DNA from: Arcobacter ellisii
Lineage (GTDB): Bacteria > Campylobacterota > Campylobacteria > Campylobacterales > Arcobacteraceae
DNA length: 64,000 nt
Assembly: GCF_003544915.1 (NCBI RefSeq)
Contig: NZ_CP032097.1
Coordinates: forward strand, 1,984,001 to 2,048,000
Reading direction: 5' to 3'
Position numbers and translations under genes: made by a program. Below the pieces are notes generated by a model. It saw only the letters and a program-made list of their open reading frames with translations. It did no database searches and was not told the origin of the DNA. Shown here piece after piece: positions 20,715 to 36,616 of this stretch (its first letter is position 1; each line of letters starts with the position of its first letter).

Positions 20715-21554
20715 TTATCTTCTCCTAAAATTCAAACTTTGTAATAAATCATTTTTAGTAATTATTTCATTGTCATTTAAATCAGCAATTGTTCTTGCAA
20801 CCTTTAAAACTTTATTAATACTTCTAAAGGATAATTGATAATTTATTCTTGCTTTTTCTAAAATATTAAGACTCTCTTCATCTAAAATACAATATTTTTT
20901 TATCTCTTCATCACTTAATTTTCCATTTAACTCTTTTTGTCCTCTTTGTTTTTGTTTTATAAAAGCCTTGATTACATTTTCGTGTAACTCTTTAGAAGTA
21001 ACTTTATTTTTTGAATCATTAAAACTATCATTCATCACAAGATACAAATCAATCCTATCTAAAAATGGTTCACTCAAACGATTCTTATATCTTTGAATTT
21101 CAAGTTCATTACATCTACACTCTTTTACACTTGATAATAAATTCCCACAAGGACAAGGATTCATGGCAGAAATAAAAGTAAATTTCGTTTCATACAAAAT
21201 TTTATTATTTACCCGTGAAATTAAAATTTTATTATCTTCCAAAGGTTCTCTTAATGCTTCTAAAACAGTTTTTGAGAAGTGAGGTAATTCGTCAAAAAAG
21301 AGTAAACCATTATTACTTAAAGCAATTTCTCCCATCTTTGCATTTGAACTTCCACCTCCAAATATTGAAGATTTTGTTGCACTATGATGGGGAGAACGAA
21401 ATGCTCTTATTGGTGAAAAATCAACCTCTTTAAAATCTAAAGCTTGAAGTTTAGCTTTTTCTAAAATCTCTTCTAAACTCATAGGTGGCATTATATATTG
21501 AACTCTTTTTGAAATCATAGATTTTCCACAACCAGGACTTCCCTCCATAATCAA
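20715..21554 (-). pseudogene. comM: comM, C-terminal part (AAA+ ATPase half), separated by island 1
   Basis: This piece carries the Walker A motif GSPGCGKSM, Walker B LLFFDELPHF, and the zinc-binding CPCG...CRCNE segment of the magnesium-chelatase-like ComM helicase. It lacks the N-terminal Lon-protease-like domain, which lies at 35918-36616. Residues before IMEGSPG come from the island. Joined, the two parts give about 505 residues, the normal ComM length, with the junction inside HHL|IMEG. ComM promotes branch migration in natural transformation, so that function is presumably lost or reduced. Confidence 0.9.
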
Positions 21555-21625
21555 ATTATAAGTATGTACTAATATAGATAATGAATCTAAATTTTTTAAA
21601 TTATTTATTATGCTAATATTTAAAT

Positions 21626-22981
21626 ATGAAAATATATATTAACAATGAATGGCACATATCTACCATTATAAATAATGTAAGCATTGAATTCTCACATGCT
21701 AATGCATATAGTAAATATTTAACATTAATTAAAAATTTATCTCCAATAACTATTAAAAATAATATGAGTAGTTTAAATAAATTTTGGATTTGGTCATTAG
21801 CGGTATCTCCAGAGGATAATGAAAGTCTAGCTTATTATATAGCAAGATATAGATTAGATTTAGAAAAAGGTTTTATTATATATGACTATAATAAAGAAGA
21901 AAAAGTAAAATTTCCAATAAGTATAATTAGATCCAATAGTCAAACAACAATTGATAATGAAGTAACAAATATTAAGAATTTTTTTACTTGGTTGTCAGAA
22001 ACTGATGATAAGTTTAATATGAATAGAAATACAATTAATCTAAAAAAAGAATATTATAGAAAAATAAATGGTAAACACTCTGACTATATTAGTACATACA
22101 TAAATAAACTCTCAAGAGAAAGAATCTTAAAAAAAGTCTACAATATACCATCAAATAAAAAAAGAATTGTAAATGTAGAAAAAGCTTTTCCATATGATTA
22201 CTTTATAGAATTGATTAAAATATCAGATATAAGAGAAAAATTATTATATCTTTTAATGGGAGGAACTAGTGCTCGAATATCACAAGTTCTAAATTTAACT
22301 ATATATGACATTGATTACGAGAATATGAATGTTTACTTATCTGATCCTAGTATTGATGATGAGAATCAACGAGGATATTTAGGAGAAACTAGGAAAAAAT
22401 GGCTTTTTGAAAAATATAATATTGATGTAAAATATCAACATCCTCATAATTTGATACAATTTAAATACCCTATTCCCAAAAGACCTAATACACCTCTTTA
22501 TTGGCTAAATGAAGAAATAAAACTTTTATTTTTTGGATTCTTATCAGAATATAATATTTTTCCAGAAAATCAACGTATGCCAATACATCCTTTCTTTTTT
22601 ACTAAAAAGAATGGAGAAAGACTTTTATATAAACCCGTTTATAATAAATTTTTAAAACATTGTGAAATTTTGTCCAACTATTATAATGATAAAAACTTAT
22701 TAACCTTTTCTCCTCATTCTTTAAGACATATGTGGGGAAATTATTTAGCAGAACTATATTCTCTGGCAATTAATATTGAAGATTATTCAAATGCTGAAAA
22801 AATTAAAATTTATGCAAAAGAAGGTATGGGACATTCAAATGAAGATTCAACTAAGTTATACTTTAATATAAATTTTAATAAAGATTTCAAAGATATTACT
22901 TATGAACTATCTTCACTGATTAACCAATATAAACATCTTCCTCCTCAAATTTTTACACAAGGTTTAAAAAATGAAAATTGA
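21626..22981 (+). CDS. Tyrosine recombinase, TnpA-like (first of a trio)
   Basis: The 451-residue protein has the catalytic residues of tyrosine recombinases: Arg at about 217 (TSARISQVLNL), the HSLRH box at about 364, and GHSNEDSTKLYF with the nucleophilic Tyr at about 411. An N-terminal SAM-like domain (about 25-130) precedes it. The next gene starts inside this one (11-bp overlap). In Tn554-type elements all three proteins are needed for integration. The gene lies at the element edge reading inward, as expected. Confidence 0.88.
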   Translation: MKIYINNEWHISTIINNVSIEFSHANAYSKYLTLIKNLSPITIKNNMSSLNKFWIWSLAVSPEDNESLAYYIARYRLDLEKGFIIYDYNKEEKVKFPISIIRSNSQTTIDNEVTNIKNFFTWLSETDDKFNMNRNTINLKKEYYRKINGKHSDYISTYINKLSRERILKKVYNIPSNKKRIVNVEKAFPYDYFIELIKISDIREKLLYLLMGGTSARISQVLNLTIYDIDYENMNVYLSDPSIDDENQRGYLGETRKKWLFEKYNIDVKYQHPHNLIQFKYPIPKRPNTPLYWLNEEIKLLFFGFLSEYNIFPENQRMPIHPFFFTKKNGERLLYKPVYNKFLKHCEILSNYYNDKNLLTFSPHSLRHMWGNYLAELYSLAINIEDYSNAEKIKIYAKEGMGHSNEDSTKLYFNINFNKDFKDITYELSSLINQYKHLPPQIFTQGLKNEN

Positions 22982-23558
22982 TAAAAGAAAATATAATGAC
23001 AATTCTAGAGAATGGAATAATACTAAAGTAGAAGAAAGAAAATTAGCATTAAAAGTAACTTGTCAAAAGATTCTCAAATTACAAGAACCTATTACCTTTT
23101 CACATATAGCTAAAACTATGAAATTATTATATGAAAAGAATATTACATTAAGTGCACAGACTATTTCACAAACAAATATATATAGATCTATATGTAATGA
23201 TATTCTAAATATTGACGATATTCCTGAAAAAAAACGAAAAATTGAAAATACTTCAAGAATTGAACTTTCAAATGAACTTCATAAAAAAAAGATTCTGATT
23301 TCACAACTTACCAGAGAAAATAAAATACTCAGAGAACGAATTCAAAAATCAAATATCCCAGAAAATACATTTAGTGAATATTCTATCAATACAAGAATTG
23401 ATAAGGTATCAATAGAAATTATAAATATACTAATTAATGAACTAATTAAATTAGGTGACTTCTATATTGATAGAAATGGTTTAATCAGAGAAACTGATGG
23501 AAAAATATTTATTTCCAATCAAATATTAGAATTATTTAATATAAAAAAGGAAGCATAA
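22971..23558 (+). CDS. Small TnpC-like accessory protein of the recombinase trio
   Basis: A 195-residue, strongly charged protein with a predicted coiled coil around residues 95-125 (NELHKKKILISQLTRENKIL). Size, coiled coil and position between two recombinases match Tn554 TnpC, which biases orientation and efficiency of transposition. No catalytic residues are seen. It overlaps tnpA by 11 bp and abuts the large recombinase without a gap. Confidence 0.75.
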   Translation: MKIDKRKYNDNSREWNNTKVEERKLALKVTCQKILKLQEPITFSHIAKTMKLLYEKNITLSAQTISQTNIYRSICNDILNIDDIPEKKRKIENTSRIELSNELHKKKILISQLTRENKILRERIQKSNIPENTFSEYSINTRIDKVSIEIINILINELIKLGDFYIDRNGLIRETDGKIFISNQILELFNIKKEA

Positions 23559-26456
23559 ATGGAATACGTAAAATATGTAGATGAATTTCCTGAAATAAAC
23601 TATACTAATAAATATCTAATATTAAAAAAATATAAAAATGATTTCCATATTTTTTACAATGATATACTAAAAGTTTATTTACCACACTTACTCAATATAA
23701 AAACATTAAAATTAAAAACTAGCCATAAAATGATTGAATTATTGAGCAATGGAAATTGGCAAGAGTTAAAATATTATCCACGAATCAGAGAATCAATTAT
23801 TACAGAAGATAAAATACATTTTAAAGATTTTAGAGACTGGAATGATTATTTTATCCATATTGATAGTAAATCATCTTATCCAATTTTTAAAACTACAGAT
23901 ATAAAAAAAAGAACTCATTATGGTCCTGCACCATTCAATCTTATTGCTGAATTTATAATAATTTTAGCAAGTAAAGGAATACTTAAAACACCTTTATATT
24001 CTACTTCATTATATTTCTCTAATAGTCCTTTTGTATTAAATTTTTTTGAGAAATATTTTAAAACAAATCAAATTTATCAAGAATTAAATAATTCACTAAA
24101 TTTTTACTTTAAATCTACTGTAAATAAAACATTTATCAACAGTATAATACTTTTAAGTTCAAATATAAATTATAAGAATATAACTGATAAAAATATAGAA
24201 AATCTTCAAAAATATTATAAAGATAATAACTTAAATTTAACAAAGTATGAAAAGAAAGACAATGTTAATAAAAAAAATGATATTTTCTCATATACTAATT
24301 CTCAATTAGAAAAGCTCCCTCTTATATTTATCAAGCTTGGTGCAAACGTAAACACGATATCACAGAAAAAAGCTAAAAACAAAACCATTGATGATTATTT
24401 CGACTATTCAAAAAAAATTTTAGAACAAAAAAGATTTAATACAAATCCTCAATTCAAAGAAATGGTATTTTCTTTTTTCAAACAACTTTATCTTGTTGAT
24501 AGATTAACAATAGATACAATTAGACAAAAAATTAGAATACTACTTGATTTTTTAAAAGAACTTGTTGAAACTTTTAACCACACATACATTACAAAAGAAA
24601 AAATGCAAAGCTATCTTGATTACCCAATTAATGAGAATACTTATCAAAAATATCTAAAAGAAAAAGAAAAAAAAGGAGTAACTAGTGAAGAACTAATCAG
24701 ATCTCAAGGCATTGTAATTGATTTCTTAAATAGTACAAATCTTTACTATGGAATTTTTAAAGAAAATACTAGAGTTAGATTTAATTCATATAAAGGTGCA
24801 ACTTTATTTAGAGAATCACTAGATGAAGAAGTTTATAATTTAATAATAGATATTTTACTAAATCGTCCACCTTATATAAAAAACTTAAAAAAGTGGGGTT
24901 CTGTACAATGTGATTGGTCCAATTGGTGGCCACATAAAGTAATTCCTTTTTTGCCACTATCTCTATTATTACACTTACATCTACCACTAAGATCTGCTCA
25001 CATACTTAATTTAGATAGAGATAACTTTTTATTACTAAATCCAGATGACTCTATAAAAGGATTTTATATAAATACAGATAAGAACACATCTAAAAAAGAT
25101 TTACATATAATCCCTAATATATATAAAAATGAACTAAATATATATAAGGAGCTGATAAAATTAAATAAAAAAATGTTTCCAAATCTTAAAAAAGTGAAAT
25201 ATAAAAATGATATAAATTCACCTTGGGAGGAATTTTATCCTTTATTTCCAAACTTTGATGGAGATAATGTGATGTCAAGAACAATTTATGAACATTATTT
25301 CAAAATAGTTGTTCTAATGGCCCAATTTGAGATTTATAATAAGAATAAAGATATCTTAATTGCATGGTTTGAAAATTCAACTTATTTTCCAAAATCAATT
25401 AATGAAATTGAAAATTTAAGTGCACGTACTATTCAAACAAAAGTTAAATTATCATTTGGACTACACTCATTGAGAGTTACTGGAGCAACAAGATTATTAA
25501 GGATGGGGTTTCCACCACAAATAATTAGATTATTTACAGGACATAAAGGTGTAAATACATTAATTAATATTTATCTTAAAATTCCTCATAAAGAATTAAT
25601 TGAATCTTATTTTAAAATTAGTGATAATATTAACACTTCTACCCCTAAAGGATTAAACAACTCACTAAGATATATCCCTTCATCAATAGTTTCCCCGATA
25701 AAAAACAAAACACCTGAAAAAATCTTAATGGAACTTAAAAAAAATCATCTTTTTACATTAAAAAGAATAGTTACTGATGTTAGAAAAACAACAAATACTA
25801 GAATTGAGATAGATAATGGATTAGAAGTTATGTCAGAAATACATTGGACTCATTGGCAAAGTTATAGTTTTGGTATTTGTGGAAAACCTGATGTATGTCC
25901 AATTGGAGCAGAAAATAGATGTTCTTTATGTCCTTACTTAGCTACAGGTCCCTTATTTTTACAGGGAGTAATAATAAAAACTCAACAAATTCAAAAAAGA
26001 ATTTTAGTACAAAGTAATATAATTGCAGAGAATAGGAAACTTGGACAATATGAAAAAAATAAATCTTTTCATAAACAACAATCATCTGATATAGAAGAGC
26101 TTGCAGGTTGGTATGAAATTATTAGTTTAATTGAAAAAAAAATAAAAGAAGATATTAAAGACAAAGAATTAGGAAATAAAATTATAAAATCAAAAGAAAG
26201 AGACCTACAACTAGTTTATTATGAAAATGTATCTGAAATTGATGGTCTCATAAAAATTTATGAAGAAGCAAAAATGTTAAATCTTTATAATCCTGATATT
26301 GAAGATACAATTTATAGATTATCTTCAAAAATCATAAAATATTGTATGAATAATAACATTAATGAAATAATTCAATATATTGATGAACCAACAAAAGTAA
26401 TAGAGTGGTTTATACCTCAAAAAGAAATTAAATTTAATAAAAAATATTTAACTTAA
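23559..26456 (+). CDS. Large tyrosine recombinase, TnpB-like, with C-terminal cysteine cluster
   Basis: The 965-residue protein contains a catalytic core with Arg near 477 (LPLRSAHIL), LHSLR near 636 and GHKGVNTLINIYL with Tyr near 671. A C-terminal block at about 774-800 has the cysteines of CGKPDVCPIG and CSLCPYL, probably a zinc site, then a helical tail. Tn554 TnpB is shorter (about 630), so this belongs to a long branch like those in recombinase-trio islands of proteobacteria. The stop is 69 bp from the convergent cargo operon. Confidence 0.87.
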   Translation: MEYVKYVDEFPEINYTNKYLILKKYKNDFHIFYNDILKVYLPHLLNIKTLKLKTSHKMIELLSNGNWQELKYYPRIRESIITEDKIHFKDFRDWNDYFIHIDSKSSYPIFKTTDIKKRTHYGPAPFNLIAEFIIILASKGILKTPLYSTSLYFSNSPFVLNFFEKYFKTNQIYQELNNSLNFYFKSTVNKTFINSIILLSSNINYKNITDKNIENLQKYYKDNNLNLTKYEKKDNVNKKNDIFSYTNSQLEKLPLIFIKLGANVNTISQKKAKNKTIDDYFDYSKKILEQKRFNTNPQFKEMVFSFFKQLYLVDRLTIDTIRQKIRILLDFLKELVETFNHTYITKEKMQSYLDYPINENTYQKYLKEKEKKGVTSEELIRSQGIVIDFLNSTNLYYGIFKENTRVRFNSYKGATLFRESLDEEVYNLIIDILLNRPPYIKNLKKWGSVQCDWSNWWPHKVIPFLPLSLLLHLHLPLRSAHILNLDRDNFLLLNPDDSIKGFYINTDKNTSKKDLHIIPNIYKNELNIYKELIKLNKKMFPNLKKVKYKNDINSPWEEFYPLFPNFDGDNVMSRTIYEHYFKIVVLMAQFEIYNKNKDILIAWFENSTYFPKSINEIENLSARTIQTKVKLSFGLHSLRVTGATRLLRMGFPPQIIRLFTGHKGVNTLINIYLKIPHKELIESYFKISDNINTSTPKGLNNSLRYIPSSIVSPIKNKTPEKILMELKKNHLFTLKRIVTDVRKTTNTRIEIDNGLEVMSEIHWTHWQSYSFGICGKPDVCPIGAENRCSLCPYLATGPLFLQGVIIKTQQIQKRILVQSNIIAENRKLGQYEKNKSFHKQQSSDIEELAGWYEIISLIEKKIKEDIKDKELGNKIIKSKERDLQLVYYENVSEIDGLIKIYEEAKMLNLYNPDIEDTIYRLSSKIIKYCMNNNINEIIQYIDEPTKVIEWFIPQKEIKFNKKYLT

Positions 26457-26525
26457 TTCTAAGTAATATTGAATAATATTCACTAATGAAAATATCTATT
26501 TATATTCCTTCACCATTAAACTTTA

Positions 26526-27101
26526 TTACTTAAAATAATATCTAATGTCTTTTTTTGACATATTATTTGTATTTAGTAAAAGAAGATTATACATTCCCGA
26601 AAGTTTTTGATTTCCTTCTAATGTAATTACAACATGCTTTTCATCTTTATTTTCACAATATTTTGGATTATCAAAAGTAAAAAAAGTTCTACAAACAAGA
26701 GGTCTAAATTGATAAATACTACAAATACCTTTATCTTGATTTAAAAAAGGGCAATAGTCATTTGTATTAATTTTCTCAATATTTTGTCTTTTATATTCAG
26801 TATTTCTTTCTATATATTTAATTTCTAACTCTGAAACGTCAACTGGTATCTTACAACAATGTGAACAACCTTTTTGACATACAGTAATTTCATCAATACT
26901 AGTATTAACTAAATCTGCATATGTATACAGTTTTTTTAATTTTGATAAATCTTTATAATTACCTTTTAGACTATTCATGAAATCTTTTTCTTCTTTTTCA
27001 ACTGAAAAATTAATAGGTCTAAATTTTAATCCTATTTTTTCTTCAGCTTGTTCTTTTGTTTGATACCTTTTTATTATTTTTTCATCAGTTCCAATATTCA
27101 T
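26526..27101 (-). CDS. YkgJ-like cysteine cluster protein, fourth gene of the E2-E1/JAB operon
   Basis: The 191-residue protein has eight cysteines in the YkgJ pattern: Cys75, 79, 82, 83 (CxxxCxxCC), then Cys117, 127, 137 (RPLVCR) and 149. Such proteins are presumed to bind a metal or Fe-S cluster; their biochemistry is poorly known. It starts five bases after the JAB peptidase stop and is last in the operon. A link to ubiquitin-like systems is not something I know from the literature, so its role here, for example as target, redox partner or effector, is open. Confidence 0.8.
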   Translation of the reverse strand: MNIGTDEKIIKRYQTKEQAEEKIGLKFRPINFSVEKEEKDFMNSLKGNYKDLSKLKKLYTYADLVNTSIDEITVCQKGCSHCCKIPVDVSELEIKYIERNTEYKRQNIEKINTNDYCPFLNQDKGICSIYQFRPLVCRTFFTFDNPKYCENKDEKHVVITLEGNQKLSGMYNLLLLNTNNMSKKDIRYYFK

Positions 27102-27105
27102 TTAT

Positions 27106-27576
27106 TTATTCCTTAAAATATTTTATATCATAAAATTTTAAACCGTTAAATGATTTAAACCAGTTTTCTTTTCTTCCCAAAATTAAATAAAGTAATAAGT
27201 TCTGTTGAACTTTACTTTGATAATAATTAACAAAAAATGTTTTATAATCTCTCAAGGACGGCTCTGCCTTCCATTGAGGATGAGTATGCCAATCACCTAA
27301 GTAAGTGATTTGTCCATTACTTTGTTCCCATATTCGTTCAATATTCTCTTGTAAATAGTTTACATTCAGTTCTAAGCCATATTCACTTGAGTTTAAAGGA
27401 TTATCTTCAAAAAAATGAGTGATTTCAATAGTGTTGTTTTGAGGATATAATTTTCCTAAAATAACACCACCTTTTTCTCTATTAAATTCAAACTGACGTA
27501 AAGTTAAAAGTTCTTGTTTCAATTGATTACTGATATAAACTTTTAAATTTTTATTTTGGAATTTGATTTTATTCAT
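27106..27576 (-). CDS. JAB/JAMM metallopeptidase (Mov34/MPN fold), candidate deconjugase
   Basis: The 156-residue protein has a complete JAMM site: Glu34 (REKGGVILG), His97 and His99 (GDWHTHP), Ser107 and Asp110 (PSLRD). In eukaryotes and in CBASS (Cap3) and Bil systems this fold cleaves ubiquitin-like proteins from targets or trims their precursors. It lies four bases after the E2-E1 fusion, so processing or removal of a small protein made by this operon is the natural inference. A role like RadC or cysteine-release JAB proteins is less likely given the neighbours. Confidence 0.9.
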   Translation of the reverse strand: MNKIKFQNKNLKVYISNQLKQELLTLRQFEFNREKGGVILGKLYPQNNTIEITHFFEDNPLNSSEYGLELNVNYLQENIERIWEQSNGQITYLGDWHTHPQWKAEPSLRDYKTFFVNYYQSKVQQNLLLYLILGRKENWFKSFNGLKFYDIKYFKE

Positions 27577-27580
27577 ATTT

Positions 27581-29245
27581 CTAAAAATTTCTTTTAATTA
27601 AAGTATTTTCATTTATAGAATATCCATCTTTTAGATATTTATTTAAATTTTCAATTTCACCAATTGAAGTCCAATGTGTTTCAATTTTTTCATCTAATAA
27701 ATATTTTACAATCATATTTGCAAAATGATTTAAATGCAAATTTGCGTTTAAATATGTATATGGCATATAATTGGAATTACACCCAACATCACTTTTTACA
27801 AATTCTAATGTAGCTTTTCCATCTAAAAATGTGATTTCTTTAAATAAGCTATTCATATTAAATTCTTCACTATTAATTGAATCATCAAATAATAATGAAT
27901 GTCCTATTGATGCAGTAGCTTCAAACCAACAAGATATAACAGCCTTAACATTCCCATTAATCGCATCTCTAATGATTTTTTCTTCAATATGATTTGCATC
28001 GCTTCCTAAGGCAGTTATAATTAAGTCACATTCCGTTAATTTTTCAAATTGATTCTCAACATAATCATCAATTGCATTTATATTAATATCTAAAAACTGT
28101 TTTTCTAAATAAGTTTTAAGTGCTAAAGCTTTATTTTGTTCAAGATACTCCATACCAAGTAAATGTCTTGCTATATTATTTGAACTTAATGTCTCTGGAT
28201 CAATTAATACAATATTGGTACAACCAATTTTAATTAATTTGTGTGCTAATGAAGACCCAACTGAACCGCAACCTACTATGGCAATCTTTTTCCCTTTTTT
28301 ATTTACATTAACATTCATTAAAGTTCCACCTCTTTTATATAACCTACTATTAGAAATATCCATTGCTAATATTCCATAAATTTCTTTGTTTGCATTTTCT
28401 TTATTAAGAAAAGGATTAATAAAATTCATTACATGAGTTGATTTCTTTTCATTAAAATAAATGCCTGCATAATGAATTTCTTTTGTATTTGGTATATTGA
28501 AAGAAAATAAAATAGCGTGAACTACGTTTTTTATCTTTTTAATTTTTTGAAGATTACTTAAATATCCAAGCTTTATAATAAGGTTTTTTAAGTCATCATA
28601 AGTTTTAGGTATGTTGTTTTCTAACTCTTTTTCAAAATTTATATATAGAATTTTATTTTTACTATATTCATAATTTGCACTTTTACAAAATTGTTTTATG
28701 AATTTTTCTTCTTCTATAAAAAGTAATTCTTGAATTTTTGTTTTAACAATATATGCATCAAGTAGTTTAAAAGACTTATATTTAGTAATAAGATCTTTAT
28801 TATAATGAATTTTTCCTCTTGCACTACACCAATAACTGTCGAATTCATCAAAAATTTCATTTTTATCAAATTCATTATTTTCAATTTTACTTAAAAATTC
28901 TTCAAGTCGATTATATGAATCACATAGTAAATCGTAAGGATTTTCATAATATAACTTATCTTCTTCCGCATTTAAACATATTCCATAAGCATTAATTCTA
29001 TCATTAAATTGCTCAATATGTGGGTATCTTAGAAACATGCTTTTATTAGTTGTATAGAATTTTGGATACTTTAATGGGAAATTATGACTGATTTCAGTTA
29101 TAATCTCCACAGAAGATTTATTAATAATGAAAAATTTACTCATTAATAACAAATCTTTACTATCTGATTTAGATGTGTCTATAAAATTTAATTCCTCCAA
29201 ATATCCCTTCGCCAAAAGTTGATTTGAAGTTAAATTATTAGGCAT
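27581..29245 (-). CDS. E2-E1 fusion: ubiquitin-conjugating-like domain plus ThiF/E1 adenylation domain
   Basis: Residues of about 20-130 resemble an E2 fold: the FPLKYPKFY segment, then the candidate catalytic Cys90 in YGICLN, and the NPYDLL helix. A central region of about 170 residues has no clear motif. Residues of about 315-500 form an E1 domain with nucleotide loop GCGSVG (325-330), Asp349, Asn356 and Arg360 (NNIAR), and candidate thioester cysteines Cys439 (ISCWFEA) and Cys489 (VGCNSN). This layout is that of Cap2 in CBASS, but no CD-NTase gene is present. The ATG at 29245 is chosen over a start 15 bases earlier; it overlaps the DUF1508 gene by 8 bp. Confidence 0.85.
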   Translation of the reverse strand: MPNNLTSNQLLAKGYLEELNFIDTSKSDSKDLLLMSKFFIINKSSVEIITEISHNFPLKYPKFYTTNKSMFLRYPHIEQFNDRINAYGICLNAEEDKLYYENPYDLLCDSYNRLEEFLSKIENNEFDKNEIFDEFDSYWCSARGKIHYNKDLITKYKSFKLLDAYIVKTKIQELLFIEEEKFIKQFCKSANYEYSKNKILYINFEKELENNIPKTYDDLKNLIIKLGYLSNLQKIKKIKNVVHAILFSFNIPNTKEIHYAGIYFNEKKSTHVMNFINPFLNKENANKEIYGILAMDISNSRLYKRGGTLMNVNVNKKGKKIAIVGCGSVGSSLAHKLIKIGCTNIVLIDPETLSSNNIARHLLGMEYLEQNKALALKTYLEKQFLDININAIDDYVENQFEKLTECDLIITALGSDANHIEEKIIRDAINGNVKAVISCWFEATASIGHSLLFDDSINSEEFNMNSLFKEITFLDGKATLEFVKSDVGCNSNYMPYTYLNANLHLNHFANMIVKYLLDEKIETHWTSIGEIENLNKYLKDGYSINENTLIKRNF

Positions 29246-29660
29246 ATCTTTTTTCTGCACTTCTTTCTGGTTTAACAGTCACTGTTGCTGCTGTTCCTGT
29301 ATTCGAAGATGAAGTTTCATCTACAAGTACCAAACTTATTCCATGTTTTTTTACAGATTCAATTCCATTGTTTCTTGCTTCTGTTGTAGAATACATTTCA
29401 CTTGTACCAATTATTTTATGGTTTTTTGCACATAAATTAAAATACGGACTTTCATCTTTTGCTACTAATCTTTGATAATTTTCATCATCTTCACAGTTTT
29501 TTCTTACTGATTCAATACCAGTTAATGCATCATGTCTGTTAACATAATTCTCTGATTTTAAAATCACTTGGTGATTCGCAGCCTTTAAAACCCAATGATA
29601 AGGTTGTTCTATACCATCATGTTTATATAAAACATAATATCCATTTTTTTTATCGTTCAA
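29238..29660 (-). CDS. DUF1508/YegP tandem-repeat protein, possible ubiquitin-like modifier or substrate
   Basis: The 140-residue protein has two DUF1508 repeats, about 7-53 and 70-107 (the second with KIIGTSEMYSTTEARNNGIESV), and a flexible tail 113-140 rich in Ser, Thr and Lys ending in RYA. Known DUF1508 proteins such as YegP are small and of unknown function. It is first in an operon with an E2-E1 enzyme and a JAB peptidase, the place where a ubiquitin-like protein or CD-NTase is expected. The start is TTG at 29660 with AAGGAG upstream. Domain call firm; role inferred. Confidence 0.85.
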   Translation of the reverse strand: MNDKKNGYYVLYKHDGIEQPYHWVLKAANHQVILKSENYVNRHDALTGIESVRKNCEDDENYQRLVAKDESPYFNLCAKNHKIIGTSEMYSTTEARNNGIESVKKHGISLVLVDETSSSNTGTAATVTVKPERSAEKRYA

Positions 29661-29683
29661 ATTGAACTCCTTGTGTTAATATG

Positions 29684-29720
29684 TACTAGTATATAGAAAC
29701 TAGTATTAGAATGATACTAA
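29684..29720. promoter_or_regulatory. Repeated ACTAGTAT operator-like sites in a divergent promoter region
   Basis: The 245-bp gap between the DUF1508 gene and the WYL regulator contains ACTAGTAT twice as a direct repeat 14 bp apart (29685-29692 and 29699-29706), followed by an inverted half site GATACTAA. The sites lie upstream of both genes, so autoregulation and control of the operon by the WYL protein are plausible. Confidence 0.45.
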
Positions 29721-29905
29721 AAAAAGAAACAAAAGTCAAATATAGTTCTAAAATAAAAGAATCAAAAGAAATAAATATCAATTTTTTTTCTAAAATTAAA
29801 GAATATATATGTACTAAATATTACAATATATTAAAAATTTACTTGATTTTTTATCATAATTAATGATAAAATACTTTTTATTAATTATAAATAGGACAAA
29901 TAAGT

Positions 29906-30796
29906 ATGATAGAAAGAGTGAAAGAAATTTATTTAAAATTATATAGGGAAGGTTACTCTTGTACAAAAAATAAATTAAAAGACTATTTTAAAGTTACTGA
30001 AAAAACCATAGAGAATACTTTAAAGCCTTATTCCAAAGTTATAATTTATGATAAGCAATTAAAAAGATATAGGTTTACTAAACTTTTACCAGATTTTATC
30101 CCTTATGAGGTTTTTTATGAAATATTTAGTGAAAGTATTGCAAATAGCACTATAAAAAAAGATTTTCTTAAAATAAAAAATCTATTCATGCAAGAAAATG
30201 ATGGTATTGTTATGATTAGTACTTCTGATTTATCAGATTTTGCAAAAAAAATTATAATGTTCACAATTGCTATAAATGATAATAATATCTTAAAAATTGA
30301 ATATACAAAAAATGGTGACCAAAAAGAAACTAAAGTTATAAAACCTCATACAATAATATGTAATGGTTTTACATATTATTGTTATGCAAGTTATGAAAAA
30401 CGAAATGAAAAGGATGTTGGTTCTATAAGAACATTTGAATTTAATCGAATAGGTAACGTTGAAAGTTTAGAATTTTTATCTGATGAAATATTCAAAATAG
30501 AACAAAATGGTAATGCTTTTGGTCCATATGAAAAAAATAAATATATTGTTTTAGAATTTGATAGAATGAGCACAGATTTTTTTAGAAAATCAAATATTTT
30601 TCAAAATTCTACTTATGAAATTATTGATATTAATGAAAATACTTTAATTGCAAAAATGTATTACAATAGTTTAGAAATTGAAGTAGTAAAGCTCATTCAA
30701 CAATGGATGCCACATATAAAAATTTCAGATGATGATGAAAATAAAAGTAAAGTTTATAAAATAATAAAAGATAATTTTGAAAAATTAATTTTTTAA
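29906..30796 (+). CDS. WYL-domain transcriptional regulator
   Basis: A 296-residue protein with an N-terminal winged helix (about 1-60: KNKLKDYFKVTEKTIENTL), a central WYL domain (about 125-205) and a C-terminal WCX region ending in the usual VVKLIQQWMPHIKI. WYL regulators often control phage-defence operons and may respond to nucleic acids or nucleotides. It is divergent from the DUF1508-E2/E1-JAB operon. The ATG follows AGGACA. Confidence 0.88.
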   Translation: MIERVKEIYLKLYREGYSCTKNKLKDYFKVTEKTIENTLKPYSKVIIYDKQLKRYRFTKLLPDFIPYEVFYEIFSESIANSTIKKDFLKIKNLFMQENDGIVMISTSDLSDFAKKIIMFTIAINDNNILKIEYTKNGDQKETKVIKPHTIICNGFTYYCYASYEKRNEKDVGSIRTFEFNRIGNVESLEFLSDEIFKIEQNGNAFGPYEKNKYIVLEFDRMSTDFFRKSNIFQNSTYEIIDINENTLIAKMYYNSLEIEVVKLIQQWMPHIKISDDDENKSKVYKIIKDNFEKLIF

Positions 30797-30805
30797 AAGA
30801 AATTT

Positions 30806-30820
30806 GTTTCCTCAGGAAAC
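30806..30820. repeat. 15-bp palindromic repeat, copy 1
   Basis: GTTTCCTCAGGAAAC, symmetric about the central C. An identical copy lies at 31624-31638; together they bracket the two small plus-strand ORFs. Confidence 0.75.
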
Positions 30821-30854
30821 TTAAACACATACAACTTTTCAATAGAAAATAAAA

Positions 30855-31043
30855 ATGTTAAATTCAAAAGAAAATAAGAAAATTAACTTTAAAAATGATA
30901 TTTCAAACAAATTTATTGATCATTTTTCTTGTATATTTAATTCTAAAAAATTATTAGAAGTAATGAAATACCACCAGGAATATAGTATTAAATGTATCTA
31001 CATTCCCTTAAATTACTCAAATGGAAATGGTAATGGATTATGA
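30855..31043 (+). CDS. Small hypothetical protein
   Basis: A 62-residue open frame rich in Lys, Asn and Ser, ending with a Gly-Asn repeat. It lacks a clear ribosome site and no family is recognised. Support is limited to its position between the two palindromes and its pairing with the next ORF 30 bp downstream, so it may not be a real gene. Confidence 0.3.
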   Translation: MLNSKENKKINFKNDISNKFIDHFSCIFNSKKLLEVMKYHQEYSIKCIYIPLNYSNGNGNGL

Positions 31044-31073
31044 AATTTAACTTTTTTTGTAAAAAATTCTAAA

Positions 31074-31460
31074 ATGAAAATTATAATTTCAAAACATGCT
31101 ATAAAAAGAAGAAAACATTATTTACCTATCAATAAAGATATTTTAATTCAATTAGTAAAACAAATTGATGACAAATATTTTATTTCAAAAAGAGATGATA
31201 ATGCATATAAAATAGGATATAAAGGTGCAATTGCAATAATTGAAAAAAATGAAAATTCTTTACTCTTGATTACAGCTTATGGTTTTCAAAGATTTGATTA
31301 TAAAATCGGTAATAATAAATTTAAAATTTCAATAGCTCTTTCAAAAGAAGAAAGAAAAAAGATTAGAGAAAATAAGAAAAATATATTTTCAAATATTGAA
31401 ATATCTGAGCATGATAAAACAATAGCTAATAATTTTGAAAGAGAAAAATGCTCATGTTAG
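31074..31460 (+). CDS. Small basic protein, possibly DUF4258/RelE-like
   Basis: 128 residues beginning KIIISKHAIKRRKHYLP, a pattern like DUF4258 and related RelE-fold proteins in which an H-A-x-x-R segment begins the domain. The body alternates strands and ends in a charged tail with a CSC terminus. With the preceding small ORF it could be a toxin-antitoxin pair, but the resemblance is weak and no strong ribosome site is seen. Confidence 0.45.
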   Translation: MKIIISKHAIKRRKHYLPINKDILIQLVKQIDDKYFISKRDDNAYKIGYKGAIAIIEKNENSLLLITAYGFQRFDYKIGNNKFKISIALSKEERKKIRENKKNIFSNIEISEHDKTIANNFEREKCSC

Positions 31461-31623
31461 AATTAGAAGAATTTTATTTCAAATATTTTTCGAAATAAAA
31501 TTCATATGCTTAATGTATTAAAATATTTAATAGATTAATATTTGCAGTTTTTACAATTAATACTATTTATTCTTATTTAACTACAAATATTTTTCAAAAT
31601 ACTTATATTTAGAGTTTAAAAAA

Positions 31624-31638
31624 GTTTCCTCAGGAAAC
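31624..31638. repeat. 15-bp palindromic repeat, copy 2
   Basis: Second exact copy of GTTTCCTCAGGAAAC, downstream of the small ORFs. The surrounding stretch 31461-31726 is AT-rich and holds nothing else that I recognise. Confidence 0.75.
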
Positions 31639-31726
31639 AGAAAAAAGTCGCTTCAAACTTCATATGAAAGTTTAATTACTAAATTACAATTTTTTAGTTG
31701 TATATTAGTACTATTAAATAACTTTA

Positions 31727-32872
31727 TCAATGAATATATACCTGTCGTGAAACCAAGGAATTATCATTATGTATTGGGATAATTTCTCTTGTAGATTTAT
31801 CAAAATAATTTTGTGTAATTTCATAGGCACTAAACAAATCATCATCCAAAGGAATATTTGCATAAGGATTATAATATATATGTAATCCATCTAGGTGAGA
31901 TTCATAATGTTCTGATAAATTACAAAAATGTACATCAGAACCAAAAACAATATCATCCATTGGTATTCTCATTGATATTACAGTATGTGTTTGAGATAAT
32001 TTTATTTCTTTATAACCTAAACTTTCAATACCATAAGTGTTAATATGTTTGTTAAAATCTTCAATTCTAAAACGAGTAGATTTAATCGTAGTATTTGACA
32101 TTTGACTTTGTGAAATGGCTTTTCCAAAAGTTCCAGTAGTTGAAAAAATAATAGCACTTATTTCTTTATAAGAATCATTAGTAAAAATACCCAAATTTAT
32201 TTCTTTCCCATTATTATTTACAATATGATTTATTTTTTTTGATGAACTGTTATTTATATCTCTCATTGTTGGTGGAAGCACTCCAAATAAAACTTGATTA
32301 ATTAAAGTATTATTTTGTGTATGGGAAAGATGATTATCAAAAGGAGCTAATGCAATTACAAATGGTTTATCTCTAACATGTTCTAATTCAGAATAAGGAT
32401 TTTTCTTATTATTTATACCAACAAATAAATCTTTTTTATCTTTTATTTTTCCTAATAGTTTTAGTATTGAATCTTTAGAACCATCATTTTTTTTTGTATT
32501 TATAGTTTCATTAAATGCTTTTTCAGAATAGTAACCCTCATCATTTGATGATTTATTGTTACTTGTAACTGCTTCAACATTTACTGTTCTTCCAGATGAA
32601 TGAATTAAATTAAAATCTGGACTTTCTTTCGAATAATCAATTTTGAAGCCCAAATCTTGAAAAGCTTTATTAAGATAAAGTTCCCATAAAGATGAATTAA
32701 ATGATATTTGTAATTCTTTAACAAATTTATCTTCTTCTTTCTTTCTTGCATCTAAACCTTTAGACCAATTTTCTAATATAGTCAAAACATTTTTGTATTT
32801 TTCATCCTTAATTATTTTCTTAAAATAAGGGTGTAATTGTTCATCCTTTACTCTGGGTGTAAATAAATCCAT
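31727..32872 (-). CDS. Putative PD-(D/E)XK-like nuclease paired with the TrlF-type ATPase
   Basis: Unrecognised family, 381 residues. The N-terminal third suggests a PD-(D/E)XK nuclease core: Glu64 in SSLWELYLNKAF, Asp86 in SPDF, and Glu100 in VNVEAV, where the usual Lys is replaced by Val. The rest has no motif I know. It starts 25 bp after the stop of the PHP-ATPase gene and is surely cotranscribed with it. Together they look like a sensor-ATPase plus nuclease defence pair; the nuclease assignment is tentative. Confidence 0.55.
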   Translation of the reverse strand: MDLFTPRVKDEQLHPYFKKIIKDEKYKNVLTILENWSKGLDARKKEEDKFVKELQISFNSSLWELYLNKAFQDLGFKIDYSKESPDFNLIHSSGRTVNVEAVTSNNKSSNDEGYYSEKAFNETINTKKNDGSKDSILKLLGKIKDKKDLFVGINNKKNPYSELEHVRDKPFVIALAPFDNHLSHTQNNTLINQVLFGVLPPTMRDINNSSSKKINHIVNNNGKEINLGIFTNDSYKEISAIIFSTTGTFGKAISQSQMSNTTIKSTRFRIEDFNKHINTYGIESLGYKEIKLSQTHTVISMRIPMDDIVFGSDVHFCNLSEHYESHLDGLHIYYNPYANIPLDDDLFSAYEITQNYFDKSTREIIPIHNDNSLVSRQVYIH

Positions 32873-32897
32873 TTTTTTCCTTTATACTCTATTTATT

Positions 32898-35570
32898 TTA
32901 TAAAACTTTCAATCCATATATTTCTTGTCTACGAATAAAAGCTTGTTTCCCACCTTCTAATATTGAACAACATAATTCACGGGTTGCATCATTATCTATT
33001 GAACCAGAATCTATGATAAATGATTTAATACTTGTACTTTTTAGAGGAATAACTAATTCTGCATCTCCTAAAACTGCAATATTTGGATTATGAGTTACAA
33101 CAATGACTTGTCTTTTTTCTTTAATTCTTCTAAGATTACTTACTATCGTTTTGTAAATAAATTCACTATCTAAATTATCTTCAGGTTGATCAATTAATAA
33201 AGGAACTCTACTCTTTGATTGAATAAGAATTGCAAGAAGAATCGATTGTTGTTGACCTAAAGATAATTGAGAAATTGAGCGACTTAAATATTTCTTAGCT
33301 CCGTTATCATCTATTATTTTTGTTACTGATAAACTAGGTTTATCATCATATTTAAAAGCTTCAAAATCCTCATATTTATAATTATCTATTGCTCTTTCAA
33401 TAATATTATTAATTTCTTCATCTTGAAAAACTCTTTTTCCATCTTCTTTAATTTGTGCGAGAGATGATAAATTTTTTTTCTTAACCCCTTCACAAAAGTC
33501 CATGACAGATAATTCATTAGCTATTATTTTTGCTTTAGAAACTTGTGATGTTCGCCATCCCATTAGATCTTTTATTGAGTTCTCAAATTCTGGAGAATAT
33601 GTACTTTCTTTATATTCTGCTTTTATAAAAAATTCATCTACTGCATCCTTTAGATTATTATTAATTACATTTGAAAACAAAAATCGTTGTTTATAAATTT
33701 CTTTCTTTACTTCTTTTCTTCTTTTTATTAAATCTTTTCTATTTTTTTCTAACTCTTTAAGTTCATTTAAAATTTCTTCTTGCTTTTTTAACCTATCTTG
33801 ATAATATGCTAAATCTTTAATTATTTGATTAATTTTTCCTAAATCAAAAGGTATTCCTTGCTTTTCTAATTCACTTTTTTTCTCATCTATTTTTGTTAAA
33901 ATATTTTTTTCTTTATCTTTCCATAAATCCAATTGAATTTTAAGTTCTCCAACTTTGGGAACAAGTTCCTCATTTAATTTTACAGAAGTTTTTTTAACTA
34001 CATTTGAAAATTCTTCAACTATTATTTTAACTTTTAAAAATTCTTCTTTTCCAATAATTATTTCATCATCAGTCATTCCTGAAAATGATTTAAATGCTTC
34101 TTCATCATTTAAAACATCTCTATAATTATCAATTAATTTTTTGAGTTTAGATATCAATTCATCACGAATCTTTTTTTCATTAGCTAATGACATTTGATAC
34201 TTAACTAAATCTCCAACTTTATCTTGTTCTAATTTTTTAACTTTCTCTGATATATTAGTAATTTGTTTTCTTGTATCAGGAATACCCTTTACCTCAATAC
34301 GTGCTTTAGTTAAAGAGCTTTGATTTTCTAAAAGTAATTCACATAATTCTTGATCTTCTTTAATTAATGGCTCTATCTCAATAAAGCTATCTAAAAAATC
34401 AAGCAATACTTTTGGGTTATCATCACTATGTTGAATCGTCGATGCAGTTTCTCCTTGTCCATAACTCTCAATAGGAATACGTATAATTCCATCTGTCATG
34501 TCTGTTATGTTAATGCTAGATGAATTCTTTTCTCGTTTAAACTCTATTTGTCTACCTGTTTCATCCTCATAAAACATACTTATTTCATCAGACCATATAT
34601 CCGTGTCTTTAACTTTAGATGTTGAAACATTTCCTGAAACTTCTCGTAATGACTCTAGCATTGTTGACTTTCCAGTCCCTCTTCCTCCAATTATGCATGT
34701 AAGATTTTTACTAAATCTTATTTTCTGTTCATCTAATAATCCACCTTTAAATTTTAAGCCAATAAAATGGGGAATTTTTTCTGGAATCATATTTTCAAGT
34801 CTAACCCTAGATTCATAGCTGATTAAAGCTATTTTAAGAGCATGAAAACTTAATGAATCAACTTTAAAACGTGTTAATCTTTTATCTCCATCTGCATTAG
34901 TCCCTAATTTATCCAATTTATGGGCATCAGAAGACATAATTTTTGGTAAAATCAAATCAAAACGCTGTTCTAATTTTGTTCTTCGTTCATTTAAAAGCTT
35001 TTTTCTATCATCATTAGTATCTACATCTGTATAATAATCAATACTATTTTTTGAACTAATTTCTAATGCTAACAAGCTTGGATGAATAAAAATATCCTCT
35101 ATAACTTTGTTGAATCGTCCTATAACTTTTTCAAAACCTGAGTCTAATTCAATATGAGCAAGAACTCCAAACCCATTAAATTCACTTGCGAATCTCAAAC
35201 ATTGAACTATGCCTTGCTCACATCGTTCCTTATCGTCTGAAATAGTGAGCTTACCAAAAAACTTTCTTAATTGTTCATATGTTTCAAAATAAACTAATAA
35301 ATGACCTTGCGTAGTACTAATTTCAATACCGGGAATAACAAGAATATTTTTATTATTAGCATAATCAATTGCTTTCTTAGAGTTCTGAATCTCATTATGA
35401 TCTGTAATACTAATTATAGAAAGATTATTCTCAATTGCTATATCAACAATATTTTGTGGCGTCATACTAGAATCTGTCACATCAAATGAACCATCTTTTC
35501 CATAAGAATGTATATGTAAATCAGCTCTTACAAAATCGGCCCCAAAATTTAAGTTATTTATTTCTTCCAT
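32898..35570 (-). CDS. TrlF-type protein: PHP phosphoesterase fused to an SMC-like ABC ATPase
   Basis: The 890-residue protein begins with a PHP domain (ADLHIHSYGKDG, ITDHNE, PGIEIS; about residues 15-240), then an ATPase with Walker A GGRGTGKST at about 290, a long coiled-coil section (about 400-690), ABC signature LSLGQQQS at about 768 and Walker B LLIDQPEDNLDS at about 790. PHP domains hydrolyse phosphoester bonds. The combination is found in TrlF-like proteins encoded near defence genes. It is the first gene of a two-gene operon near the right end of the island. Confidence 0.85.
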   Translation of the reverse strand: MEEINNLNFGADFVRADLHIHSYGKDGSFDVTDSSMTPQNIVDIAIENNLSIISITDHNEIQNSKKAIDYANNKNILVIPGIEISTTQGHLLVYFETYEQLRKFFGKLTISDDKERCEQGIVQCLRFASEFNGFGVLAHIELDSGFEKVIGRFNKVIEDIFIHPSLLALEISSKNSIDYYTDVDTNDDRKKLLNERRTKLEQRFDLILPKIMSSDAHKLDKLGTNADGDKRLTRFKVDSLSFHALKIALISYESRVRLENMIPEKIPHFIGLKFKGGLLDEQKIRFSKNLTCIIGGRGTGKSTMLESLREVSGNVSTSKVKDTDIWSDEISMFYEDETGRQIEFKREKNSSSINITDMTDGIIRIPIESYGQGETASTIQHSDDNPKVLLDFLDSFIEIEPLIKEDQELCELLLENQSSLTKARIEVKGIPDTRKQITNISEKVKKLEQDKVGDLVKYQMSLANEKKIRDELISKLKKLIDNYRDVLNDEEAFKSFSGMTDDEIIIGKEEFLKVKIIVEEFSNVVKKTSVKLNEELVPKVGELKIQLDLWKDKEKNILTKIDEKKSELEKQGIPFDLGKINQIIKDLAYYQDRLKKQEEILNELKELEKNRKDLIKRRKEVKKEIYKQRFLFSNVINNNLKDAVDEFFIKAEYKESTYSPEFENSIKDLMGWRTSQVSKAKIIANELSVMDFCEGVKKKNLSSLAQIKEDGKRVFQDEEINNIIERAIDNYKYEDFEAFKYDDKPSLSVTKIIDDNGAKKYLSRSISQLSLGQQQSILLAILIQSKSRVPLLIDQPEDNLDSEFIYKTIVSNLRRIKEKRQVIVVTHNPNIAVLGDAELVIPLKSTSIKSFIIDSGSIDNDATRELCCSILEGGKQAFIRRQEIYGLKVL

Positions 35571-35917
35571 TGTTTTTTATTCCCTATATATTATTGTTGT
35601 TGTTTATCTATCATAAAGTATTGAAATAATTATATGAACTAGTTTCACAAATATGTTGTTTTACTCTTTTGGGGTATAACTTATTATCATTTTTATAATA
35701 CACAAATGAATTCCTCTTTAAGTTTTAAAGTAACTAACTATTAGTTACAAGTGATTATATAATAATTAATACAATGATTTATTTATTAATCTAAATAAAA
35801 ATATATTATTCAGTATAATTTTGTAACATTTCAAGTATAAATTTGTAGATTCTATATACTTTCAATATAATGAATTAAAAATAACACCTTTAAATAAGAA
35901 CATTTTTTAATTCATGG
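35571..35917. other. Non-coding right end of island 1
   Basis: 347 bp of AT-rich sequence with no credible gene. It holds one clear inverted repeat, GTAACTAA-CTA-TTAGTTAC (35730-35748), and the promoter region of the TrlF-type gene. The repeat could be a terminator-like structure or a recombinase arm site. Confidence 0.5.
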
Positions 35918-36616
35918 TTAAAGTTCAGTATATATTAGGTGGTGATTTCCAGCTGCGCAAATCATAGCAGCATATTTAGCCATATCTTGCCCAATAACAT
36001 CACTGAAATCTTCAGGATAATTTGTTTCATAAAAATATTTTTCACTATTTATTTCTAAAATCTTATGTTTAATCTCTTTTTTTTCATATAAGAATTCTTC
36101 TTTTTTTTCACTCTTGATAAACTCTATTGCTTCGTTTAACTCTTTCACTTTATAAATTTGTAAATTTGGAATATTTACTAATTTTTTTGCACTCTCTTCA
36201 CAAACAACAACTTTTTTTACTTCACCCTTTTTCACAAGAGATAAAACCATAGGAAAAATCAAAGTTGTATCTTTAATATTCCCATCAAGAGCCAATTCAC
36301 CAAAGAAAAAAAAGTCATCAAAGTTAATTTTTTTATTATCATAAAATGCTATTTGTAAAGCAATTGCTAAATCAAAATGAGTTCCTTTTTTTGATATTTC
36401 AGAAGGAGAGAGATTTACAATAATTTTTAAAGGAGGAAATTTAAAACCATTAATCAATAAAGCAGATTTTACTCTCTCCTTTGATTCACTAATACTTGTA
36501 CTTATCATTCCCACAATCGTAAAAGTCGGTAATCCTTTAGTAAACGTTGATTCAACATCAATTGAAATTGCATCAATTGTGTCTAAAGAGGCTGATTTAA
36601 TTATTTTCATATTCAT
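35918..36616 (-). pseudogene. comM: comM, N-terminal part (Lon-protease-like domain)
   Basis: 232 residues from the ATG at 36616 match the N-terminal Lon-protease-like domain of ComM, ending DFSDVIGQDMAKYAAMICAAGNHHL. The next codons (IYTEL, stop) come from the island. The ATPase half is at 20715-21554, 14.4 kb away. The interruption falls just before the Walker A motif, so this fragment cannot bind ATP. Confidence 0.9.

Follow-up and report, generated by a model that had tools for sequence, protein, structure and literature searches.

The window, a stretch of 64,000 nucleotides of the Arcobacter ellisii contig NZ_CP032097.1, contains an operon in which a gene for a small DUF1508/YegP protein is followed by genes for an E2-E1 fusion and a JAB isopeptidase. 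The question raised by this locus is whether YegP is itself the protein on which the conjugation enzymes act and whether its C-terminal tail is the handle. An earlier note on this DNA had proposed the tail as a candidate conjugation handle, and both the restriction of the tail to E1-linked YegP proteins and its conserved end support that proposal. Established at the sequence level are the tail, this restriction, the intact E1, E2 and JAB residues, the kinship with Cap2 and the substrate position of the gene. We infer from them a Cap2-Cap3 ubiquitin-like conjugation module with YegP in place of the CD-NTase as the activated and conjugated protein, with a probability of about three in four; activation of YegP by its E1-E2 is considered probable to the same degree.

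Structure of YegP and its C-terminal tail

The YegP gene (29238..29660, minus strand) is the sole DUF1508 gene in this genome. It starts with TTG, preceded in the start region by an AAGGAG site, and encodes a 140 aa protein with two PF07411 stretches (2e-35), the candidate conjugated protein. The AlphaFold model has the two-repeat YegP fold at high confidence and matches the folds of 2k49 and 2k8e (TM-score about 0.9, normalised by target). The model matches YegP structures, and the list of matches contains no beta-grasp chain, which by itself does not exclude a beta-grasp fold. The C-terminus is Tyr-Ala, not the Gly-Gly of ubiquitin-like (beta-grasp) modifiers.

The last 28 residues, VDETSSSNTGTAATVTVKPERSAEKRYA (29241-29324, minus strand), had been described as a flexible, Ser/Thr/Lys-rich tail that follows repeat 2 and ends in EKRYA. 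The ORF translation agrees with its length, position and ending. The composition is Ser/Thr-rich and mildly basic, but Lys occurs just twice. Flexibility is predicted for residues 119-140 (29241..29306, minus strand; pLDDT <50), whereas the preceding VDET belongs to the YegP fold: strand 112-115 of the model ends within it, and in alignments it corresponds to the KDNT/EDLT that closes ordinary YegP. The conserved end of the tail, KPERSAEKRYA (residues 130-140; 29241..29273, minus strand), is a candidate E1 handle.

Ordinary YegP/DUF1508 proteins (UPF0339), such as E. coli YegP (2k8e), share the two DUF1508 repeats and the fold but have neither a tail nor an E1 neighbour and end 0-3 residues past the last strand; YegP of the window extends about 22 residues past its second repeat. 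That ordinary YegP proteins stop soon after repeat 2, as the note had it, is seen in E. coli 2k8e, in Shewanella 2k49 and in 15 genes from E1-free contexts, all of which lack the disordered tail.

YegP/E1-E2/JAB operons and conservation of the tail

Searches of genomes and plasmids yielded six distinct YegP/E1-E2/JAB operons: that of the window, L004 (genome G061), L005 (G016, on the same contig as L020, from an Aliarcobacter MAG), L013, L029 (G512) and L036 (G624). L013, the one additional operon obtained by tblastn against plasmids, is carried by plasmid pCNAC48 of Aliarcobacter cryaerophilus, whose annotation omits the YegP ORF; L021 is a near copy of it. The operons of G512 and G624 come from a different family within the same taxonomic order. 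Compared with the window, the E1-E2 proteins of L004, L005, L013, L029 and L036 are 75%, 46%, 47%, 30% and 30% identical, respectively, and the YegP proteins of these operons 76%, 61%, 58%, 48% and 38%. The single-protein scan of genome contigs gave no match, and an alignment scan gave near relatives and CBASS loci only.

The YegP tails of the six operons are SSSNTGTAATVTVKPERSAEKRYA, SSSDKGSATSAAATVTVKPERSSAKRYA, ...EEKPMVTKKPEKSGLAGRYA, ...EEKPVVTKKPEKSDLAGRYA, GSDGDNGSEGPVITNNPVRSKSNKYA and GENSGGVSTSEPKRSGSNRYA. Each consists of a linker of variable length, then T, P, [KR]-S and terminal [KR]-Y-A; the pattern P-x-[KR]-S-x(2,3)-[KR]-Y-A is present in 6/6 operons. All six are from Campylobacterota and form a single clade, and some pairs are close. 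A tail held in common by recent descent alone, with no function, would agree with this distribution, but such an explanation is highly improbable: lineages with 30% E1-E2 identity have kept the tail end while the linker has become unalignable, and YegP proteins of the window and G624 are identical at 7/13 of the last positions, above the 38% for the whole proteins. Outside Campylobacterota, the only E1-YegP operon found was L021, in a contig whose assignment to a Fusobacteriaceae MAG is probably a binning error; the genome searches were not centred on other phyla, and absence there is not implied.

The check set by the note was whether a conserved tail occurs only beside E1 genes. The tail is present in 6/6 E1-associated YegP proteins and 0/15 E1-free ones, with a conserved end and a variable linker. 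Of the 397 Campylobacterota genomes sampled, eight gave a DUF1508 match. In G000 and G512, where E1-E2 adjoins DUF1508, the profile is matched through its last position; in the six other genomes the match stops at position 112-122 of 149. Five of these (G058, G059, G083, G094 and G099) belong to the window's own family, and their YegP genes lie in a common chromosomal neighbourhood without E1-E2 and end in AEVTE or similar; the tail-less YegP of G271 has the C-terminus EVVEVK. In Pseudomonadota, Cyanobacteriota and Bacteroidota, nine YegP genes on plasmids, none accompanied by E1-E2 within the stretch read, stop 0-3 residues past the EDLT/KDNT strand. The chance of the 6/6 versus 0/15 split would be 1 in 54,264 for independent genes, a figure that is only a guide, since these genes are not independent.

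No relative of the E1-E2 protein was found in the viral contigs searched, and the YegP genes in these contigs are without the E1-linked type of tail. One of them (L065, 3995-4519) has a different C-terminal extension, which is repeat-like and ends in KRYK; it has no E1-like neighbour.

Gene overlap and codons of the tail end

The YegP stop codon and the E1-E2 ATG overlap by 8 nt (ATGCCTAA; 29238..29245, minus strand), and the same overlap is found in 6/6 operons, so the last two YegP residues are constrained in every member. The conserved end could accordingly be regarded as a by-product of translational coupling, with R-Y-A set by the needs of the DNA and a ribosome-binding site placed inside the tail codons. 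The xAT-G of the overlap does force Y, H, N or D followed by V, A, D, E or G, and AGGAAGAT in L005 and L013 resembles a ribosome-binding site. Several observations make coupling unlikely as the source of the conserved end. T, P and [KR]-S, located 7-13 residues ahead of the end, are also conserved, with synonymous codons that vary (ACT/ACC/ACG, CCA/CCT/CCC and AGT/AGC, for T, P and S, respectively). The Arg at -3 is encoded by CGT in G624 and by AGA elsewhere, and no purine-rich run resembling a ribosome-binding site was seen at the G624 tail end. In CD-NTases encoded beside related Cap2s, the R at -3 is retained together with the A at -1 even though the overlaps there are -2, 1 and 20 nt. Coupling also has no need for a disordered extension of at least 22 residues. 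The terminal Ala codon of the YegP tails is GCC or GCA. The overlap helps to fix Y-A and does not explain the motif; the R-Y-A signal could be partly driven by it, but the codon changes and the comparison with CD-NTases argue against the overlap as a full explanation.

E2-E1 and JAB enzymes

The E2-E1 fusion is a 554 aa protein of the Cap2 type (27581..29245, minus strand; PADLOC E1-E2, 5.4e-58). Judged by position, C90 is the putative catalytic Cys of E2 and C489 that of E1; H76, C90, G325, D349, R360, K372 and C489 are invariant across 22 E1-E2 proteins. The best Foldseek match of the predicted structure is 7to3 (Cap2-CdnD02; 4e-20), with Atg7 complexes next. VIA-align gave a Z of 20.1 for 485 aligned residues with an rmsd of 15.7, which means that the domains match those of Cap2 while their arrangement is uncertain.

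In a tree of the 22 E1-E2 proteins, the six YegP-linked enzymes form one clade (100/98). Its sister, among the type II CBASS Cap2s, consists of the CBASS Cap2s of G042 and G132, from the same order (99/98). Nesting of the YegP-linked enzymes within type II CBASS Cap2s is likely but not proven, because only midpoint rooting was used and the branch leading to Agrobacterium is long. At E1 positions 416 and 486, the latter lying three residues ahead of C489, the YegP-linked enzymes and their sisters carry acidic residues, which are mostly lacking in other Cap2s. Both are candidate tail-binding positions. A common tail groove would produce such a pattern, but it may stem from a single evolutionary event and is no more than suggestive.

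The JAB isopeptidase, of the Cap3 type (156 aa; 27106..27576, minus strand; PADLOC JAB, 1.4e-29), has the motif HTHPQWKAEPSLRD and a Glu in EKGGVILG. H-x-H-P-x7-S-x2-D and E-x-G-G are intact in the window and four relatives; in the sixth operon (G624), where the ORF was read by eye, the JAB motif is HTHPEKNPSPSLMD.

Comparison with CBASS substrates and other conjugation systems

Cap2 joins CD-NTases to targets via a C-terminal Gly or Ala, and most substitutions of this residue abolish both conjugation and defence; Cap3 takes the CD-NTase off without a scar (PMC10097602, PMC11153139). In the Bacillus cereus Cap2 substrate, the terminal handle is Ala331 (PMC11153139). A Cap2 substrate is expected to have a flexible C-terminal tail with Gly or Ala as the last residue; YegP has the predicted disorder of residues 119-140 and a terminal Ala in 6/6 operons. 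Trimming by JAB, which the note had considered a possible prerequisite for a protein ending in Ala, is not required, since Ala is a normal handle that Cap2 uses directly (PMC10097602, PMC11153139).

In most of the CBASS loci read, the CD-NTase gene lies directly upstream of cap2, like YegP, with gene overlaps of -85 to +20 nt, and most of the CD-NTases have a C-terminal Ala. Those of the sister group end in TSGRQA (G042, and likewise both G041 and a Sulfurimonas contig) or TSERQA (G132), which the YegP ends SNRYA and AGRYA resemble, and the Agrobacterium CD-NTase ends in GGRHA. R or K at -3 and A at -1 are common to the YegP tails and the CD-NTase tails of related Cap2s; at -3, the remaining CD-NTases carry N, Q, A or S, save two with odd ends (SGME and AKEV). 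The CD-NTases beside cap2 in L023, L024 and L025 (3013-4038) end in SSGME and that in L018 (2840-3916) in NSAKEV; trimming may be needed for these. In L007/L009 (G041), the CBASS cap2 is seemingly interrupted by a transposase gene, and the CD-NTase still ends in TSGRQA.

The YegP operon thus shares with type II CBASS the E1-E2 fusion and JAB families, a substrate gene directly upstream and a flexible substrate tail ending in Ala, but YegP occupies the substrate position. No CD-NTase was found in the stretches read of the six operons, and for this reason the operon is not classed as type II CBASS. The downstream genes differ between operons and none of them is a known, cyclic-nucleotide-responsive CBASS effector.

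In a literature search of limited coverage, no link between YegP and E1-E2 was found. The YegP/E1-E2 type is not among the operons described in the accessible part of Iyer et al. 2006 (PMC1779556), and in NCBIfam the only related entry is 6A-MBL. According to this entry (NF058523) and row 6a of Iyer et al. 2006, the 6A-MBL anti-phage system is likewise a non-CBASS operon based on Cap2/Cap3-like domains. It differs in having a metallo-beta-lactamase partner and a single E1-E2-JAB chain, whereas JAB in the window is encoded by a separate gene and has no such partner. The window scored 61 against profile NF058523, for which the cut-off is 320.

Bil and Bub operons attach ubiquitin-like modifiers reversibly, by means of E1, E2 and a peptidase that undoes the conjugation. 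The enzymes of the YegP operon would likewise allow reversible conjugation, but no ubiquitin-like modifier was seen there.

Proposed role of YegP

The arrangement suggests the following route. The E1 domain would adenylate the C-terminal Ala140 of the flexible YegP tail, and YegP would be handed over to the E1 Cys C489 and then to the E2 Cys C90. An isopeptide bond would join YegP to target lysines, possibly those of phage proteins, of an abundant host protein or of YegP itself. The JAB protein would cleave YegP off again, with no trimming beforehand.

The note had also allowed that YegP may instead be the target. YegP would then be an acceptor to which another protein is conjugated, with tail lysines as the acceptor site; Lys is present in the tail of most members, and a gene outside the operon could in principle supply the conjugated protein. 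The best-conserved tail residues are, however, C-terminal and do not include a lysine, and the G624 tail has a single Lys, in EPKRS. Neither a beta-grasp protein nor a CD-NTase is encoded in the operons read, and YegP occupies the CD-NTase position. Both this position and the type of tail fit a modifier better than an acceptor, and the acceptor role is very unlikely.

As the protein activated by E1-E2, YegP would plausibly be the second non-beta-grasp protein, unrelated to CD-NTases, to be conjugated via a C-terminal Ala by a bacterial E1-E2; cyclic-nucleotide signalling would be absent, and the conjugated protein itself would be the effector or a mark. This wider reading is favoured with less assurance than the activation of YegP. 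If true, the uncharacterised YegP family would gain a testable function, and E1-E2 modules would appear to switch substrates through a short C-terminal tail, with the tail chemistry retained.

Neighbouring genes, regulation and the defence island

The gene downstream of JAB is variable, and none is common to all six operons. In the window it encodes a CxxCxxCC protein (26526..27101, minus strand; PF03692, 3.9e-10), and relatives carry other genes there, including those for small unknown proteins in L033. A zinc-dependent phospholipase C follows JAB in L013 (7654-8592), L020 (7198-8136) and L021 (3893-4552) and is absent from the other operons; it is a possible membrane-attacking effector.

On the other side of YegP, a divergent gene (29906..30796, plus strand) encodes a WYL-domain protein (PF13280, 3e-7), a candidate regulator, which matches the solved WYL protein 7qfz only weakly. 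A divergent WYL-like gene is present in 5/6 operons, with several matches just below the Pfam cut-off; in pCNAC48, the 348-aa product of the divergent gene gives a weak DNA-binding match at most. The interval from the WYL gene to YegP contains an inverted repeat, TACTAGT-N8-ACTAGTA (29684..29705), a possible operator identified by pattern only and not conserved in L033. A promoter-like site on the minus strand (29711-29739), also identified by pattern only, has this inverted repeat just downstream. CapW (WYL) proteins are DNA-damage-responsive controllers of CBASS and Bub operons, and Bub operons are often under CapW-type regulators (PMC13373217). The YegP operon is probably kept repressed by the divergent WYL protein until DNA damage or infection occurs, and the output of the module is probably anti-phage or stress protection.

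comM/yifB (20715-36616) is divided into an N-terminal part (35918-36616) and a C-terminal part (20715-21554) by an island of roughly 14 kb, to which the operon belongs. A recombinase trio (21626-26456) opens the island, which also contains, near the operon, genes for a PD-T7-5 anti-phage protein (31727-32872; 1.6e-130) and a TrlF-type PHP/ATPase protein (32898-35570; 4e-165). These components support a defence role for the YegP operon, and the region is best read as a mobile island of defence genes that has inserted into comM.

YegP genes also occur near other regulators. In 57 loci, yegP follows capK-capS, beside a DNA-damage-responsive immune regulator and with no known role (PMC13373217); in the window, too, YegP adjoins a candidate regulator, but E1-E2 is not mentioned for the capK-capS loci in that source. 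Among the tail-less plasmid YegP genes, that of Marinobacter (L048, 1636-3324) is oriented divergently to a WYL gene, with a Y-family polymerase nearby, and that of Acaryochloris (L015, 3322-4300) adjoins umuD, a recurrent association of YegP with DNA damage genes.
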